Positions 7,079 to 19,582 of a stretch of DNA of 28,545 bases are shown here, in pieces; position 1 is the stretch's first letter, and every line of letters starts with the position of its first letter. This stretch comes from Pancytospora philotis (Eukaryota > Microsporidia). The notes below the pieces were generated by a model. It made no database searches and had not been told where the DNA came from. It saw only the letters and a program-made list of their open reading frames with translations. The DNA lies in NCBI GenBank assembly GCA_023647555.1, contig JALRLY010000223.1, forward strand, positions 1 through 28,545. Reading direction: 5' to 3'. A program made the translations under genes and the position numbers.

Positions 7079-8251
7079 TTAAGCGGATGACTTACCCATG
7101 AAGAAGTAAGCGCCAGCGCCGAGCACAACGAACACGGCCAGAGCGATACCGCCGTAAAGGAGCCAGCTAGAGCTGAACCAGGAGCTCTCCTCCTTGGTCT
7201 CAACGGCCGGGGTGGCCTCAGGGGCAGCAGTCGCAGCAGGCTTGAAGTCGGCAGACAGAGCGGACTTGCTATCGTCCAGAAGCTTGGAAGCGTTGCTCTG
7301 CAGATCAACAACATTGGCAACGGACTTCTTGACGACGGACTCCCTGACGCTCCAGAGAACGTGGGGAATACCAGTGTGAATCAAGAAATCACCCTTGTTC
7401 ACGATGGACTTGTAAGCCTCATCGTGGTCCTTGCCGTTGATCTTCTCGAGGAAGTTAGCCTTCATCTTCTTGACATCCTCGGTGACATCGTAGAGCTTCT
7501 TGGCAGTCTCGTTTTCGCTATTAGCCTTCTTCACATTCTCCTCCTTGGACTTCTCGCTGGCAGCCAGAAGATCCTTGGCCTTCTTAATGAAGTCCTCGAT
7601 CTCCTTGTTAGCCTTGGTCTTCTCCTTCTCGTTATCCAGGTCGTCAGCAGATCCACTCACAGTCTCGCACACACCAAGGAACGTATTGTGCGCATTGGTG
7701 AACTCAGTGATAGCGTTCTCGAGATGCTCATTGGCGTCGGTGGTAGCCTTACCAATCTTCGTCTCAGCCTCTTTATTTGCCCTGGTATAAGCCTCGAGCT
7801 GCTCCGCAAAAATGCCTTCCTTAGCATCGGCGATCAGCTTCTCAACATCAGCAGCAAGCTCAATATTCTTCTTCAGAAGCTCGCTGAACTTCTCATTATC
7901 TTCTTTCTTCACAAGGTTGGTGCTCTTCTTCATCTGCACGATGGTGCTGTTGTTCTTCTTAATCTCCGCCACCTTCTCGTTGATCGGCTTGTAGAGCTCA
8001 GCGTTGATCTTCTCGTCGAAGTCCTTCTTAGACTTGTCGTTTTTCTTGGCATCCTTGATCGCCTCCTGCTGCTGCTTGAGGGCATCCTCGCACTCCTTCT
8101 TGAAAGTCGTCTGGGCCTTCTCGTAAGTCTTATACCCCGTCCTGAGGCTGGGCGCATCAGAAGCGGCATAGTCCTTGTACGCCTTGGCATCAATGCTACA
8201 GAAGTTCAGAGTAACCGCAAGCAACTGCGCTGCTGTAATCCCGAAAATCAT
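7079..8251 (-). CDS. Predicted secreted or surface coiled-coil protein A, single C-terminal membrane anchor
   Basis: The 390-residue protein is not assignable to a named family. The N-terminus MIFGITAAQLLAVTLNFCSI looks like a signal peptide, with likely cleavage near DAKA. Residues about 25-330 are highly charged Lys/Glu/Asp/Ala helix, probably coiled coil. A short Ala/Thr/Pro/Glu stretch (AATAAPEATPAVETKEE) precedes a membrane helix (LLYGGIALAVFVVLGAGAYFF) and a tiny tail MGKSSA. The architecture and the N-terminal residues match the gene at 10498-11769, so the two are paralogs. The promoter is duplicated too. AAG, GAG and ATC codons dominate, as in a highly expressed gene. The stop TAA overlaps AATAAA. 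A spore-wall, polar-tube or parasite-surface role is inference only. Confidence 0.85.
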   Translation of the reverse strand: MIFGITAAQLLAVTLNFCSIDAKAYKDYAASDAPSLRTGYKTYEKAQTTFKKECEDALKQQQEAIKDAKKNDKSKKDFDEKINAELYKPINEKVAEIKKNNSTIVQMKKSTNLVKKEDNEKFSELLKKNIELAADVEKLIADAKEGIFAEQLEAYTRANKEAETKIGKATTDANEHLENAITEFTNAHNTFLGVCETVSGSADDLDNEKEKTKANKEIEDFIKKAKDLLAASEKSKEENVKKANSENETAKKLYDVTEDVKKMKANFLEKINGKDHDEAYKSIVNKGDFLIHTGIPHVLWSVRESVVKKSVANVVDLQSNASKLLDDSKSALSADFKPAATAAPEATPAVETKEESSWFSSSWLLYGGIALAVFVVLGAGAYFFMGKSSA

Positions 8252-8390
8252 GGGGTAAATTTTTTTCTTTTTTTTATATTTTTACCCCTTTTTGCACGTC
8301 CTTTATCCGGCGCGGCCCGCCCTTCTGACCAATTACGGCTCGGCGCAGCACTCGCAACCATTGGTGTTCGGTGGCGTTCGGCGACCAATC
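8252..8390 (-). promoter_or_regulatory. Promoter of surface-protein gene A: three CCAAT boxes, TATA-like tract, inverted CCCC/GGGG element
   Basis: Read toward the gene, ATTGG/CCAAT boxes occur at 8385-8389, 8358-8364 (the palindrome CCATTGG) and 8329-8333. Then come GCCGGATAAAGGA and AAAAAGGGGTAAAAATATAA. An A-rich run leads to AAATTTACCCC, which touches the ATG at 8251. The outer GGGGTAAA and inner TTTACCCC are inverted copies of each other. The same arrangement precedes gene B, with a 21-base identical core. CCAAT-binding NF-Y as the reader is inference. Confidence 0.75.
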
Positions 8391-10320
8391 ATCGCCGGCG
8401 TCCTTTTTCAGGGCTAGACTTGGCGAGCACGCCGGTTATGCGGTTGCAACTAACTGCGCGAGCACTCCCGTTGAATTGCTAGTATGCTGGCCGGACTGCT
8501 GCTTCTTGTATCTCACTTTTAATTCTTATGCCGGCCCGCATATTTTTATGAGCGCGTTGCCAGTTAATGGTAGCAGAGTGCCGCCAGAGCGGGCTCATGG
8601 TCTCCATTAAAAAATTCTGCGCTCTACAAGTAAATTTATTGTGCATTACTGCAGAGGCCGCATTAGCCCGTATGCTTCGTAACGCGGCCGTACTTATAGC
8701 TTGCGTGATGTTTTAAAAACTGGATCGTCATCGAGAACTGTATGGCACTATGAAACGCAACCAGCTCAGAAGCACTGGCATTTGGACGCACCGTGCGCGT
8801 TAAGCTTTATCGTTCTTGGCTAGGTTGAATGCTTCGTAGTGGCTCACTGCATTGCTCCTGGACGCATCTTGCTCGGTGGAACGGTTGCACGCCGCGAACA
8901 CCGAAGCTTCTTGCCGCGCTGGTGGAAATTTGCAAGTTAATTTGTCTTCTATTTAGCGTAAGCTGCTGCGTATAAGCAGCGTCAAAGCCGCGGAAAAGCG
9001 CTGCATATGGGTATCCACGGGCGTCTAGAATGCTCACGAATTCGCAGAAACAAGGAAGCACACTTCGCCAGCTGCTGGAGAATGGGCTCTGATTGACAGC
9101 AAACCCATACAGCGGTATGCGCCGCGGAACACATTCCTACATCTGTATTATGATACAGTAATTCTATATACAAAACCACTGCTGCCTATTAGCCCGTGGC
9201 CTGGAGTAGGAGCTGCTCATCCTGCGCCGAGCAGCGGCCAGTTGTAATTGGTCAGCCGCCCCCTCGGGCTGCCCCTTTTAGATAATTGAAAATTTTTAAA
9301 GGGGTATTAAGCCAGCGCGCCAATGAGCTGCGCGGAGGCTCCGCGGTACCGGCATTGTGCTGGGGGAGCTGGGTTTGCGACGGTGTAGCATGGCATAAAC
9401 TATTCATAGCAGCTTCAAATATCTATACAAACTACATTATATCACCATGCGTTTTCGCTTATCTCGGTACTTACGTGGGCCTGCCCGGGCAAATCTAGAT
9501 AAATTATGACACGTGTTATTTTATTCTAGCCCGATAACGTGGCTTGTCACTGGGTTCATAGCGGCTGCGGCAACTAATATGTTTCATTCAAGCAGTATTG
9601 TATCGGGCAGTAGACACATTCTTCATTTTCGCACTTATGTGCTAAGAAGCGGGAGTTGTTCAGCCACGGTGTCATTACGCACAGCGGCGATGGAGCCGCG
9701 TAAATTTTGAGATGCTCGCGCTAGCTTTGATTCTTGAATAAAATGAAAGTGCTAGTGATATACGCACTCAAGACACTAGACCGCGGTCCATGCGCTACCA
9801 ACAGAATGAATCTCCTTTTGCCCTCAGCGATTCTATAGACGCTGTATTCCAACAGTGGCTCAAAATACCAGGAAACGCAGATTCCAAACTATTAAACCTG
9901 GTCATTATTATTCTGCTACATATGTTTAGTATGCAACGTTGCGCATCTTACAGCGCGCATCTACCTCTATGTGATTAAGTAAAAATTCTCACCGGCGACT
10001 CATTACTGCTCGAGACAGAGAAGTAGTTTATTCTACGCAATACTGCACCAGGATACAGCTCCGAGCATTTATCGAAAAAATACTTGCACTGCTCACCGCG
10101 CACAAAATGCGAATGTGTTCAATTCTGCGTAGTCGACACCCCTGTTAAAATTTTACCACTAATAGAGCGGCGCGTTGGCTGGTAGTTATGCAGAGAGGCT
10201 CAGAACGCGAATACTAACGACCGCTGCCGCCGCATCTACATAATCATTAAATAATATTCAATAACTGCAGCAGTGTGGCATCGTCCGCGCATCTGGGAAA
10301 CCAGCGGACGCCGCTTCACA
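8391..10320. other. Long gene-free spacer between the divergent paralogs
   Basis: Almost 2 kb without a convincing gene. Reading frames here are short (under 85 codons) and lack the AAATTTT/CCC start element and GC-rich codon use of real genes. No tRNA or rRNA signature was seen. The one structured stretch is 9240-9305, which resembles the two flanking promoters. The spacer may hold a decayed third family member, but no protein similarity is visible. Confidence 0.5.
9240..9305 (+). promoter_or_regulatory. Promoter-like relic inside the paralog spacer
   Basis: GTAATTGGTCAG here is identical to 12 bases of the gene A promoter (reverse strand, 8327-8338). About 20 bases downstream comes an AT-rich inverted repeat, CCCCTTTTA at 9272-9280 against TTTTTAAAGGGG ending at 9304. 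The ATTGG-to-ATG spacing, to an ATG at 9323, is about 76 bases, near the roughly 80 of the real promoters. That ATG opens only 21 codons, so this may be the remains of a lost family member. Confidence 0.3.
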
Positions 10321-10497
10321 GCCATTGGTCGTCGTCGCTGATAGGTGAGCGCGCAGCGGAAAAACAGCCAATCAGCAATGAGACACGCAGTGCAGCAGTA
10401 TTAGTGGTGGATTGGCCGCAAAGGGGGCTTATTCCGGCGATAAGGAGATGAAGTAAAAAGGGGTAAAAATATAAAAAAAAATGAAAAATTTTACCCC
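10321..10497 (+). promoter_or_regulatory. Promoter of surface-protein gene B: matching CCAAT/TATA/CCCC layout
   Basis: CCAAT-type boxes lie at 10322-10328 (CCATTGG), 10368-10372 and 10411-10415. CCGGCGATAAGGA follows at about 10435, then AAAAAGGGGTAAAAATATAA from 10456 and an A-run. AAAAATTTTACCCC touches the ATG at 10498. The last 41 bases match the gene A promoter almost base for base, differing by a few A/T changes and one indel. The proximal CCAAT box is about 80-85 bases from the ATG in both. Confidence 0.75.
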
Positions 10498-11769
10498 ATG
10501 AGCTTCAAGATTACAACGATGGAGCTGGCGGCACTTGTCTGCGGCTTTTCATCCGTGGCTTGCAAGGCTCTGGATGAGGTGTCCATCGCGGACCTCAAGA
10601 CCAGGAAGGAGGACTTCAACAAGGAAGCGGGCACCAAGACGAAGGATGCCTGCTCTGTCGTGGCTGACAAAGTCAACGAGTCGGAGAAGCATGTGAATGC
10701 GGGCAGCCACTCTGAGGGCCCTGCCCAGTTCAAGAAGGAGTTCACCGAGGCGACTGAGAAGTTCGCTCACCCTGGCGGCGAGTACTATAAGTCGGCGCGC
10801 GATAAGGTTGCCGAGCTGATCAAGTCGGACTACGCCCCCAAGCTCCAGGACTGCGAGAACAAGCTCAAGGAGCTCCTCGAGGCGTGGAGCAAGGCTCAGA
10901 GCTCTCCGGAGAAGACCGAGAATTTGGATACGCTGAAGACGAAGGCAGACGCGTACGTGACTGCTACCCAGGAGCTGAAATCGGCGCCTGATGCTGCTTC
11001 TGTGTTCGACAAATTGTTCGAGAGCGTCGATACGCAGCTGCTTTCCAAGTACACTACTACTATGGTTGATCAGACTGGTAAATACGAGAAATTCTCCAAA
11101 GACACTATGAAATATCTGATGGATCGCATCGCGGTTATCGCGGAGAAGTTCGGTACTGCCCGTAAGGAGATCGCGGTGCTGAAGAACCAGGCTAGCGCCT
11201 ATGGTATCGTGAACAATGCCGAGGTCAACACTGAGCTCGTCAAGTGCTACAACGAGCACTGTGCTAAGCTCGATGAGGATTCTAGGAAGAACTCCAAGAA
11301 GATGATCGAGCTGCTCACCAAGGTTAAGGAGGACATCAGCAAGTTCGGTGCGGATCTCTCTGATTTCGCTCGGGGTGCTTCTGACGCTGATCTTATCTTT
11401 AAGCACTGGCTGCAGAGCCTCACTGCGGTGATTGATGAGTCCTATGCCACGGTTGCCTGCTCTGGTGCCAGAGTTGGTTTCGTTACTGGCTGGTTTGTGA
11501 AGGATGAGATGCTTGAGGACTACTGCAAGACCACCGAGAACTTCTGCGACAAGATCGCCACCTCTCTCAAGGAGAAGTGCACTTTCGCCGGTGCCAAGGC
11601 CAGCAGCACTGTCACTGGTGCTGGTGAGGCCACGGATGCCCCTGCTGCCGAGACCAAGGCCGAGGAGACTCCCTTCTACAATACCTGGTGGTTCTACACC
11701 CTGTGCATCGGCGCTGGTCTGCTCATCCTTGGTGGTGTTGCCTTCGCTGTCATGAGCTCTTCCAAATAA
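10498..11769 (+). CDS. Predicted secreted or surface coiled-coil protein B, paralog of A
   Basis: The 423 residues begin MSFKITTMELAALVCGFSSV, a likely signal peptide ending near ACKA. They align to protein A as M-x-F-x-I-T...A-x-x...F-S...KA. The middle is charged helix with repeated Lys, Glu and Ala, plus scattered cysteines (KDACS, QDCENK, KCYNEHCAK, DYCKTTENFCDK, KEKCTF), more than in A. A short Thr/Ala/Glu stretch (ATDAPAAETKAEETP) precedes the membrane helix WWFYTLCIGAGLLILGGVAFAV and the tail MSSSK. Toward the 3' end codons shift to GGT, GCT and TCT. Function is unknown; a role in the spore wall, polar tube or host contact is inferred from topology alone. The start is fixed by TTTTACCCC-ATG. 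Confidence 0.88.
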   Translation: MSFKITTMELAALVCGFSSVACKALDEVSIADLKTRKEDFNKEAGTKTKDACSVVADKVNESEKHVNAGSHSEGPAQFKKEFTEATEKFAHPGGEYYKSARDKVAELIKSDYAPKLQDCENKLKELLEAWSKAQSSPEKTENLDTLKTKADAYVTATQELKSAPDAASVFDKLFESVDTQLLSKYTTTMVDQTGKYEKFSKDTMKYLMDRIAVIAEKFGTARKEIAVLKNQASAYGIVNNAEVNTELVKCYNEHCAKLDEDSRKNSKKMIELLTKVKEDISKFGADLSDFARGASDADLIFKHWLQSLTAVIDESYATVACSGARVGFVTGWFVKDEMLEDYCKTTENFCDKIATSLKEKCTFAGAKASSTVTGAGEATDAPAAETKAEETPFYNTWWFYTLCIGAGLLILGGVAFAVMSSSK

Positions 11770-18466: not shown

Positions 18467-19582
18467 ATGGGCTTGGGGGACAAGATCGCCGAAATCGAGG
18501 CTGAGATGGCGCGCACGCAGAAGAACAAACGGACGGAGCACCACCTTGGCGCGCTGAAGGCGAAGCTGGCGAAGTACCGCGCCGAGGTCAGCGCGCCCAA
18601 GACGCAGTCGCAGAAGCAGGACTCGTTCGAGGTGCAGAAGCAGGGCGACGCGCGCGTGGCGCTGGTCGGCTTCCCCAGCGTGGGCAAGAGCACGCTGCTG
18701 AGCACGATCACCACGACGTTCTCCAGGCAGGCCGAGACCGAGTTCACCACGCTCGACTGCATCTCCGGCAAGCTCGAGTACAAGGGCGCGTCGATCCAGA
18801 TGCTGGATCTGCCCGGGATAATCGACGGCGCGGCCGCCAACAAGGGCCGCGGGCGGCAGATCATCAGCACGGCGTGCACCGCGGATCTGATCGTGATGAT
18901 GCTCGACCACCGGCGGCCCGGCGACAGGGACATCCTGACGCAGGAGCTGGCCAGCATGGGCATCCGGCTCAACAAGGAGCGGCCCGATGTGAGCATCGTC
19001 AGGACGGGCAGCGGGATCGACATCACCGCGGTGTGCAAGCTGACCAGGATAACCGACGAGACCATCCGGGCGATCCTGCGCGAGTACAAGATCCACAACT
19101 GCCAGATAACCATCCGCGAAGACATCAGCGACGAGGATCTGATCGACGTGCTTGCGGGGCAGTCGCACTACGTGCGGTGCATATACTGCTACAACAAGAT
19201 CGACGAGCTGAGCTACGAGGAGTTTACCGGGCTCGTGGAGGAGCAGGGCCTCGACAGGTCGGGCACGGAGGGGTGCCACAGCATAGCCGTCAGCTGCGGC
19301 GCTGGGTGGAACCTGGACGGCCTCAAGGAGGAGATATGGCGCCGGCTGCAGCTGACGCGGCTGTACACGCGCAAGCGCGGCGAGGAGCCGGACTTCGAGC
19401 ATCCGGCCGTGCTGCGTAGCCCCTGCAGCGTCCGGGATCTCACCAAGACGATACACAAGGACTTCGATGCGAATTTCAAGCACGCCTTCGTCTGGGGGCG
19501 CAGCGCGAAGCACATGCCGCAGAAGGTCGGGCTTGGCCATGTCCTCAGTGACGAGGACGTCGTGCAGCTGTTCACAAAATAA
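18467..19582 (+). CDS. RBG1: DRG-family GTPase (DRG1/Rbg1-like)
   Basis: A developmentally regulated GTP-binding protein that acts on ribosomes, with DFRP/Tma46 partners, to relieve stalled translation. In the 371 residues, G1 GFPSVGKST is at 68-76, G3 DLPGIIDGAA at 114-123 and G4 NKID at 243-246. A SCGAGWN G5-like loop is near 277-282, and a TGS domain fills about 294-371. The N-terminal basic helix with KNKRTEHHLGALKAKLAK is typical of DRG1. The length equals that of yeast Rbg1. CGCACCCGC abuts the ATG and AAATTTTTC lies further up. The stop TAA overlaps AATAAA at 19578-19583. Confidence 0.96.
   Translation: MGLGDKIAEIEAEMARTQKNKRTEHHLGALKAKLAKYRAEVSAPKTQSQKQDSFEVQKQGDARVALVGFPSVGKSTLLSTITTTFSRQAETEFTTLDCISGKLEYKGASIQMLDLPGIIDGAAANKGRGRQIISTACTADLIVMMLDHRRPGDRDILTQELASMGIRLNKERPDVSIVRTGSGIDITAVCKLTRITDETIRAILREYKIHNCQITIREDISDEDLIDVLAGQSHYVRCIYCYNKIDELSYEEFTGLVEEQGLDRSGTEGCHSIAVSCGAGWNLDGLKEEIWRRLQLTRLYTRKRGEEPDFEHPAVLRSPCSVRDLTKTIHKDFDANFKHAFVWGRSAKHMPQKVGLGHVLSDEDVVQLFTK

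Follow-up and report, generated by a model that had tools for sequence, protein, structure and literature searches.

Two outward-facing and probably paralogous genes in the window analyzed here, which is an entire 28.5 kb contig (C9) of an 83-contig, 3,680,843-base genome, carry nearly the same 42 to 43 bases directly before their start codons, whereas their proteins share only about 25% identity. In an alignment of 44 columns, 40 are identical, three are gaps, and one is a mismatch, and these differences fall within or next to runs of A/T. The greater part of the block is the core promoter already known from microsporidia, here in an unusually complete and tightly held form. Two further elements of these upstream regions may be new: an AAAGGGG box located 6 to 7 bases above TATA and an ordered trio of CCAAT sites upstream of both genes. 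The best joint explanation, which we consider probable, is an old inverted duplication followed by selection on expression that holds a complete core promoter, with coordinated strong transcription of the two genes. The coordinates are collected in Table 1.

Table 1. Genes and upstream elements discussed in the text, with positions in the window
Feature	Positions	Strand	Basis or remark
Gene 1	7079-8251	minus	390 aa ORF
Gene 2	10498-11769	plus	423 aa ORF, probable paralogue of gene 1
Shared promoter block, gene 1	8252-8293	minus	40/44 columns identical to gene 2 block
Shared promoter block, gene 2	10455-10497	plus	40/44 columns identical to gene 1 block
AAATTTACCCC, CCCC abutting ATG (AAATTT-like and CCC-like), gene 1	8252-8262	minus	sequence
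AAATTTTACCCC abutting ATG, gene 2	10486-10497	plus	14 exact genome copies, control 0
TATAAAA starting at -27, gene 1	8272-8278	minus	
TATAAAA starting at -28, gene 2	10470-10476	plus	
AAAAAGGGG box (6 bases above TATA), gene 1	8285-8293	minus	
AAAAAGGGG box (6 bases above TATA), gene 2	10455-10463	plus	
CCAAT cluster, gene 1	8329-8389	minus	sites 8329, 8360, 8385
CCAAT cluster, gene 2	10324-10415	plus	sites 10324, 10368, 10411
Third gene, 104 aa	3221-3535	minus	TGAAAATTTTACCCC directly before ATG

The likeness of the two blocks was measured against the upstream regions of 125 ORFs that span 450 bases or more, drawn from 228,545 bases; if CCC directly preceded an ATG among the first 50 codons, the ORF was started at that ATG (67 of the 125 ORFs). 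When the last 45 bases were aligned locally, the gene 1/gene 2 pair ranked at the top of 7,750 pairs with a score of 65; the next pair scored 30, and the background had a mean of 12.0 and a standard deviation of 2.9. The near identity before the two ATGs reported in a preliminary description of this DNA was therefore confirmed. That description had also named a 21-base exact core, which is present, but the true exact run is longer and encloses it (AAAAAGGGGTAAAAATATAAAAAAAA, 26 bases). A genome search with the 21-mer core returned no other match at up to three mismatches, whereas the core read backwards, used as a control, matched twice. The 15-mer GGGGTAAAAATATAA occurs in only these two places in the genome. 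The similarity of the blocks ends at -43, and the upstream sequences without their last 45 bases score 36 as compared to 26.2 ± 4.8 for shuffled sequences (23 of 500 as high). Part of the matching comes cheaply owing to the A/T-run composition. Chance is excluded as the origin of the block likeness.

Across the 228,545 bases examined, no two neighboring called ORFs (450 bases or more) lie further apart than genes 1 and 2, whose entire ATG-to-ATG space (8252-10497) measures 2,246 bases as compared to a median gap of 267.5; gaps that run over the end of a 10 kb stretch are excluded. A decayed third gene copy within this space was considered and rejected, as tblastn returned chance-level pieces only (best E 0.73). 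With regard to noncoding RNA, the window, this intergenic space included, gave no tRNA and no Rfam match at the gathering score. Near the middle of the intergenic stretch, positions 9223-9306 form a weak promoter-like copy of the gene 1 upstream region, containing ATTGG, AAATTTTT, and AAAGGGG (score 39, 5 of 500 shuffles as high). This copy does not resemble the gene 2 upstream region (427 of 500 shuffles as high), and no recognizable gene lies behind it. Elsewhere, the window contains a gene for a TLC-type ATP/ADP translocase alongside further genes of eukaryotic type; for a DRG-type GTPase at 18467-19582, the nearest named relative is from the microsporidian Pancytospora epiphaga (74%), and unnamed metagenome proteins reach up to 81%. 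The DNA thus belongs to a microsporidian, probably one close to Pancytospora.

The protein encoded by gene 1 consists of a hydrophobic N-terminus, a helical middle rich in Lys, Ala, and Glu, and a hydrophobic C-terminal segment followed by a short tail. The hydrophobic termini of the gene products, read by eye, are what we take to be a signal peptide and a membrane segment, and a surface or extracellular-type location is predicted for both proteins. Local alignment of the two proteins gives a score of 158, as compared to 52 ± 8 for shuffled sequences, with 0 of 500 as high. The similarity is strongest in the first 30 and the last 70 to 75 residues (0 of 1000 shuffles as high for each), and the middle segment alone is weaker, its score being reached by 3 of 1000 shuffles in global and by 42 of 500 in local alignment. 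Judging by their sequences, the proteins are probably paralogous. At the positions with the same amino acid, Met and Trp omitted, the third base agrees in 51 of 90 cases, and 52.5 would be expected from codon usage, which indicates that the silent sites of the two genes are saturated. The preliminary claim that the proteins have diverged to scattered identity thus holds, as does the claim that the promoter is kept more tightly than the protein, with 40 of 44 block columns standing against the agreement at synonymous sites.

Database searches returned little for either protein. The gene 1 protein matched no Pfam family at E values up to 1, and the Pfam matches of the gene 2 protein were all below the cut-off. 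Within the genome, no further relative of gene 2 was found at E values up to 10, and gene 1 gave one match (E 0.03, 18% identity over 110 residues). In a search of 5.8 billion proteins for candidates sharing exact 5-residue words, the gene 2 protein matched only itself, and the gene 1 protein matched only itself among its best 7,994 candidates. An AlphaFold2 model built on the two-sequence alignment was all-helix and of low confidence (pLDDT 47), and searches of solved structures with the two proteins gave chance-level matches only (best E 0.56 and 0.24).

By position and content, the block is a promoter, and in this respect the statement that both genes carry the same promoter stands. CCCC adjoins both ATGs, so that CCC lies within about 15 bases of each start, an AAATTT-like signal lies above it (AAATTTACCCC and AAATTTTACCCC), and TATA[AT]A[AT] falls within the range of -25 to -32 in both genes. 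These elements are widespread among the 125 ORFs. CCC is found at -12 to -1 of 50 of the 125 first ATGs compared to 67 of 833 internal ATGs, and AAATTT is found at -60 to -1 of 38 of the 125 ORFs compared to 7 of 125 at -160 to -101. TATA[AT]A[AT] has six matches within -100 to -1, all of which start at -27 or -28 and two of which belong to genes 1 and 2. In addition, the third gene in Table 1, for which no relation to the pair is visible, has its own copy of the start-proximal signal, and the proximal half of the block is therefore general. As a signal of the pair's own, the promoter thus holds only in part: the proximal half and TATA are general, and the half with the AAAAAGGGG box and the A-tract, together with the CCAAT cluster, is unusual.

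Genome searches point the same way for the proximal signal. TTTTACCCCATG has nine copies as compared to one for the control, and together with AAATTTTACCCC (Table 1) it marks 19 distinct sites, nine of which have an ATG by construction. Seventeen sites open an ORF of at least 77 aa; the remaining two are a site with an ATG that opens just 10 codons and a site without an ATG near. On contig 70 near 9381 (L047), AAATTTTACCCC is followed by CCCCTTTTTGAAAGGGG without a nearby ATG. Several genes behind the AAATTTTACCCC/TTTTACCCCATG sites encode hydrophobic N-termini. Such N-termini, with a start behind AAATTTTACCCC or a close variant, are seen at L037, L038, L046, L048, and L049 (contigs 3, 48, 76, and 77) and at L008, L010, L011, and L053 (contigs 45, 81, 82, and 10), and some of these loci are clear paralogues. 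Read by eye, L050, which lies behind a general start signal, presumably encodes ribosomal protein uL6/L9, and L041 presumably encodes a GTPase.

The AAAGGGG box is far rarer. The pattern AAAGGGG-N2-9-TATAAA-N12-32-ATG has five matches genome-wide and none in the reversed control. The five places belong to three gene groups, namely genes 1 and 2, a pair of genes from contig 62, and a single gene from contig 23. Between AAAGGGG and TATA there are 6 bases at four of these places and 7 at the remaining one, with TATA beginning at -27 or -28; CCC is missing from the ATG of the contig 23 match. AAAGGGG with TATAAA is found in 0 of 123 other upstream regions. The looser pattern GGGG-N20-34-CCCCATG has eight matches compared to one for the control, and the four that lie outside genes 1 and 2 and the contig 62 pair are without a TATA box.

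Further upstream, both genes carry ATTGG, CCAAT, and ATTGG, read outward from the ATG in the sense of the gene, at 78 to 174 bases and with spacing that differs between the genes. Three CCAAT/ATTGG sites at -200 to -61 are found in two of the 125 ORFs, namely genes 1 and 2 (two of 85 among ORFs for which this region is noncoding). In this test, which was picked after the sites had been seen, dinucleotide shuffles reached three sites in 1 of 2000 cases for gene 1 and 7 of 2000 for gene 2. The entire intergenic stretch contains eight CCAAT sites, which is unexceptional (117 of 1000 shuffles as high), and the density of CCAAT is 2.06 per kb in 55 other noncoding regions compared to 0.83 overall. 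NF-Y (HAP) recognizes a CCAAT consensus, and sites clustered above the core promoter were found here post hoc, three for each gene. NF-YA (PF02045) had no match in the genome and likewise none in 14 control genomes, so the control is silent. PF00808 histone folds gave eight matches in the genome, six of them over the cut-off, which are not assigned to NF-YB/C. A possible, if doubtful, reading is that the AAAAAGGGG box and the ordered CCAAT sites form a gene-specific layer over the core promoter that marks a small one-stage regulon, the proposed members of which are the gene 1/gene 2 pair, the contig 62 pair, and the contig 23 gene.

The extent to which the block is retained sets it apart from other gene pairs. 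Paralogue pairs at 74% and 63% protein identity keep 35 of 42 and 42 of 54 upstream columns, respectively. Pairs at 34% and 36% keep only the 13-base AAATTTTTACCCC, and pairs at 23% and 25%, which are only probable paralogues, keep 20 and 19 of 22 proximal columns, respectively. These benchmark pairs are few and were selected via a match to AAATTTTACCCC or TTTTACCCCATG; those at 23 to 36% identity keep 13 to 20 proximal bases, as compared to 40 of 44 columns for genes 1 and 2. A pair on contig 62 (1319-1358 and 4977-5016, L051 and L052) shares 94 identical bases that span the promoter and the first codons and contain GCAAAAAGGGG, TATAAAAA, AAATTTCCCC, and the ATG. The likeness of this pair breaks abruptly in the short flanks covered on either side (8 bases upstream, 19 downstream), which indicates that copying of promoter blocks can happen in this genome.

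In the explanation that we favor, genes 1 and 2 would have been born of an old inverted duplication, and purifying selection on expression would hold the block as the extracellular-type proteins diverge past synonymous saturation. A block of 40 bases that evolved neutrally is not expected to survive divergence that has saturated the silent sites. TATA at -27/-28 would set the transcription start just before the ATG, AAATTT and CCCC would mark the initiator beside the start codon, and the AAAAAGGGG box 6 bases above TATA and the three CCAAT sites would act as additional activator sites. As a likely result, the two genes would be transcribed strongly and in coordination, each from its own outward-facing promoter. 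The start position, selection over recent copying, high expression, and co-regulation are each read from sequence features, and selection on the block is judged from a single gene pair. Co-regulation is likely, since the near-same and tightly held start region suggests that the two genes are probably switched on together.

The main alternative, which we consider unlikely, is that the promoter was recently copied between the inverted genes by gene conversion, in which case the identity would reflect homogenization and not long selection. The sharp edge at -43 would fit such an event, as would a likeness that extends slightly into the coding sequence (inverted arms of 60 bases with 77% complementarity), the suitable geometry of inverted neighbors 2.2 kb apart, and the precedent of the contig 62 pair with its abrupt divergence. 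However, the two blocks are set apart by indels and a substitution that fall within or next to runs of A/T, the coding sequence directly behind the ATG has diverged, and the edges of the block line up with functional elements.

It is considerably less probable that each gene independently reached the optimal strong promoter of this genome with no special link between them. TATA, AAATTT, and CCC are general elements, and the stretch from TATA to CCCC of a contig 10 gene agrees with that of gene 1 in 23 of 27 columns and with that of gene 2 in 24 of 28, at a site that was picked by pattern and with scores that exceed every pair of the 125 ORFs except gene 1/gene 2. The contig 10 gene, which by its N-terminus we take to be a member of the L008, L010, and L011 family, is apparently unrelated to the pair. 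High-consensus promoters can therefore look alike without common descent, as far as a pattern-selected site can tell. Convergence of this kind, however, would have to produce a 26-base exact run reaching to -43 that is unseen elsewhere and 15-mer and 21-mer cores that are unique to the pair, and the two proteins look related at both ends.

Both blocks also contain GGGGTAAA...TTTACCCC, an inverted repeat with arms of 8 and 9 bases. In the genome, GGGGTAAA-N10-26-TTTACCCC is found only at genes 1 and 2, and the repeat folds as RNA at -9.9 and -10.9 kcal/mol (z -2.63 each). That it is a functional unit, either as a palindromic site for a factor or as a hairpin formed in DNA or in a leader RNA, is highly improbable, because arms of 8 to 9 bases are present in 4 of 123 other upstream regions, the AAAGGGG promoters of contigs 62 and 23 keep GGGG without complementary arms (on contig 62 the complementarity is lost beyond GGGG/CCCC), and 5' UTRs of less than 7 bases, as measured in Encephalitozoon cuniculi (PMC2803860), would place the repeat outside the mRNA. 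Based on the asymmetry of the other AAAGGGG promoters and the short UTRs, the repeat is best seen as a by-product of two elements, and its symmetry is probably incidental.

Microsporidian promoters are thought to be very compact and simple. The general CCC signal alone cannot explain differential expression, and the pair described here, in which proteins at synonymous saturation still have a complete and extended promoter in common, gives gene-specific control in microsporidian parasites a concrete candidate that can be tested. Promoter likeness could also provide a way to find co-expressed, fast-evolving proteins where protein similarity fails.

Several features of the two upstream regions can be compared to known systems. 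The three CCAAT pentamers located 78 to 174 bases above each gene resemble NF-Y (HAP) sites; unlike in NF-Y systems, the spacing differs between the genes, and NF-YA was without a match in a search whose control was also silent. The fungal stress response element (STRE), bound by Msn2/4, has the consensus AGGGG, which is contained in AAAAAGGGG; unlike STRE, AAAAAGGGG has a fixed position against TATA. In the accessible portions of the literature, we found no microsporidian AGGGG box above TATA and no CCAAT clusters, although either may be among the 40 further motifs reported in PMC3486916. For Pancytospora and Enteropsectra, PMC10393165 describes large families whose members carry signal peptides or membrane segments, and PMC5415576 reports the absence from microsporidia of almost half of the fungal transcription factor families. 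The microsporidian start signal, as given by Peyretaillade et al. 2009 (PMC2803860), consists of CCC directly before the ATG with AAATTT upstream, the latter being reported for genes of ribosomal proteins and for 6 of 32 genes that encode abundant proteins, and the CCC motif also appears in Cornman et al. 2009 (PMC2685015). Genes 1 and 2 follow this signal, with CCCC abutting the ATG and AAATTT 1 to 2 bases above it; whereas the signal described there is short and proximal, the identity here reaches -43. TATA and CCC motifs are likewise described for Trachipleistophora hominis in PMC3486916, and a TATA peak at -27 for Nosema ceranae in PMC2685015. The TATA[AT]A[AT] of genes 1 and 2 agrees with the N. 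ceranae position but, unlike the TATA described there, runs into an A-tract of 8 to 9 bases and has AAAAAGGGG at a fixed distance above it.
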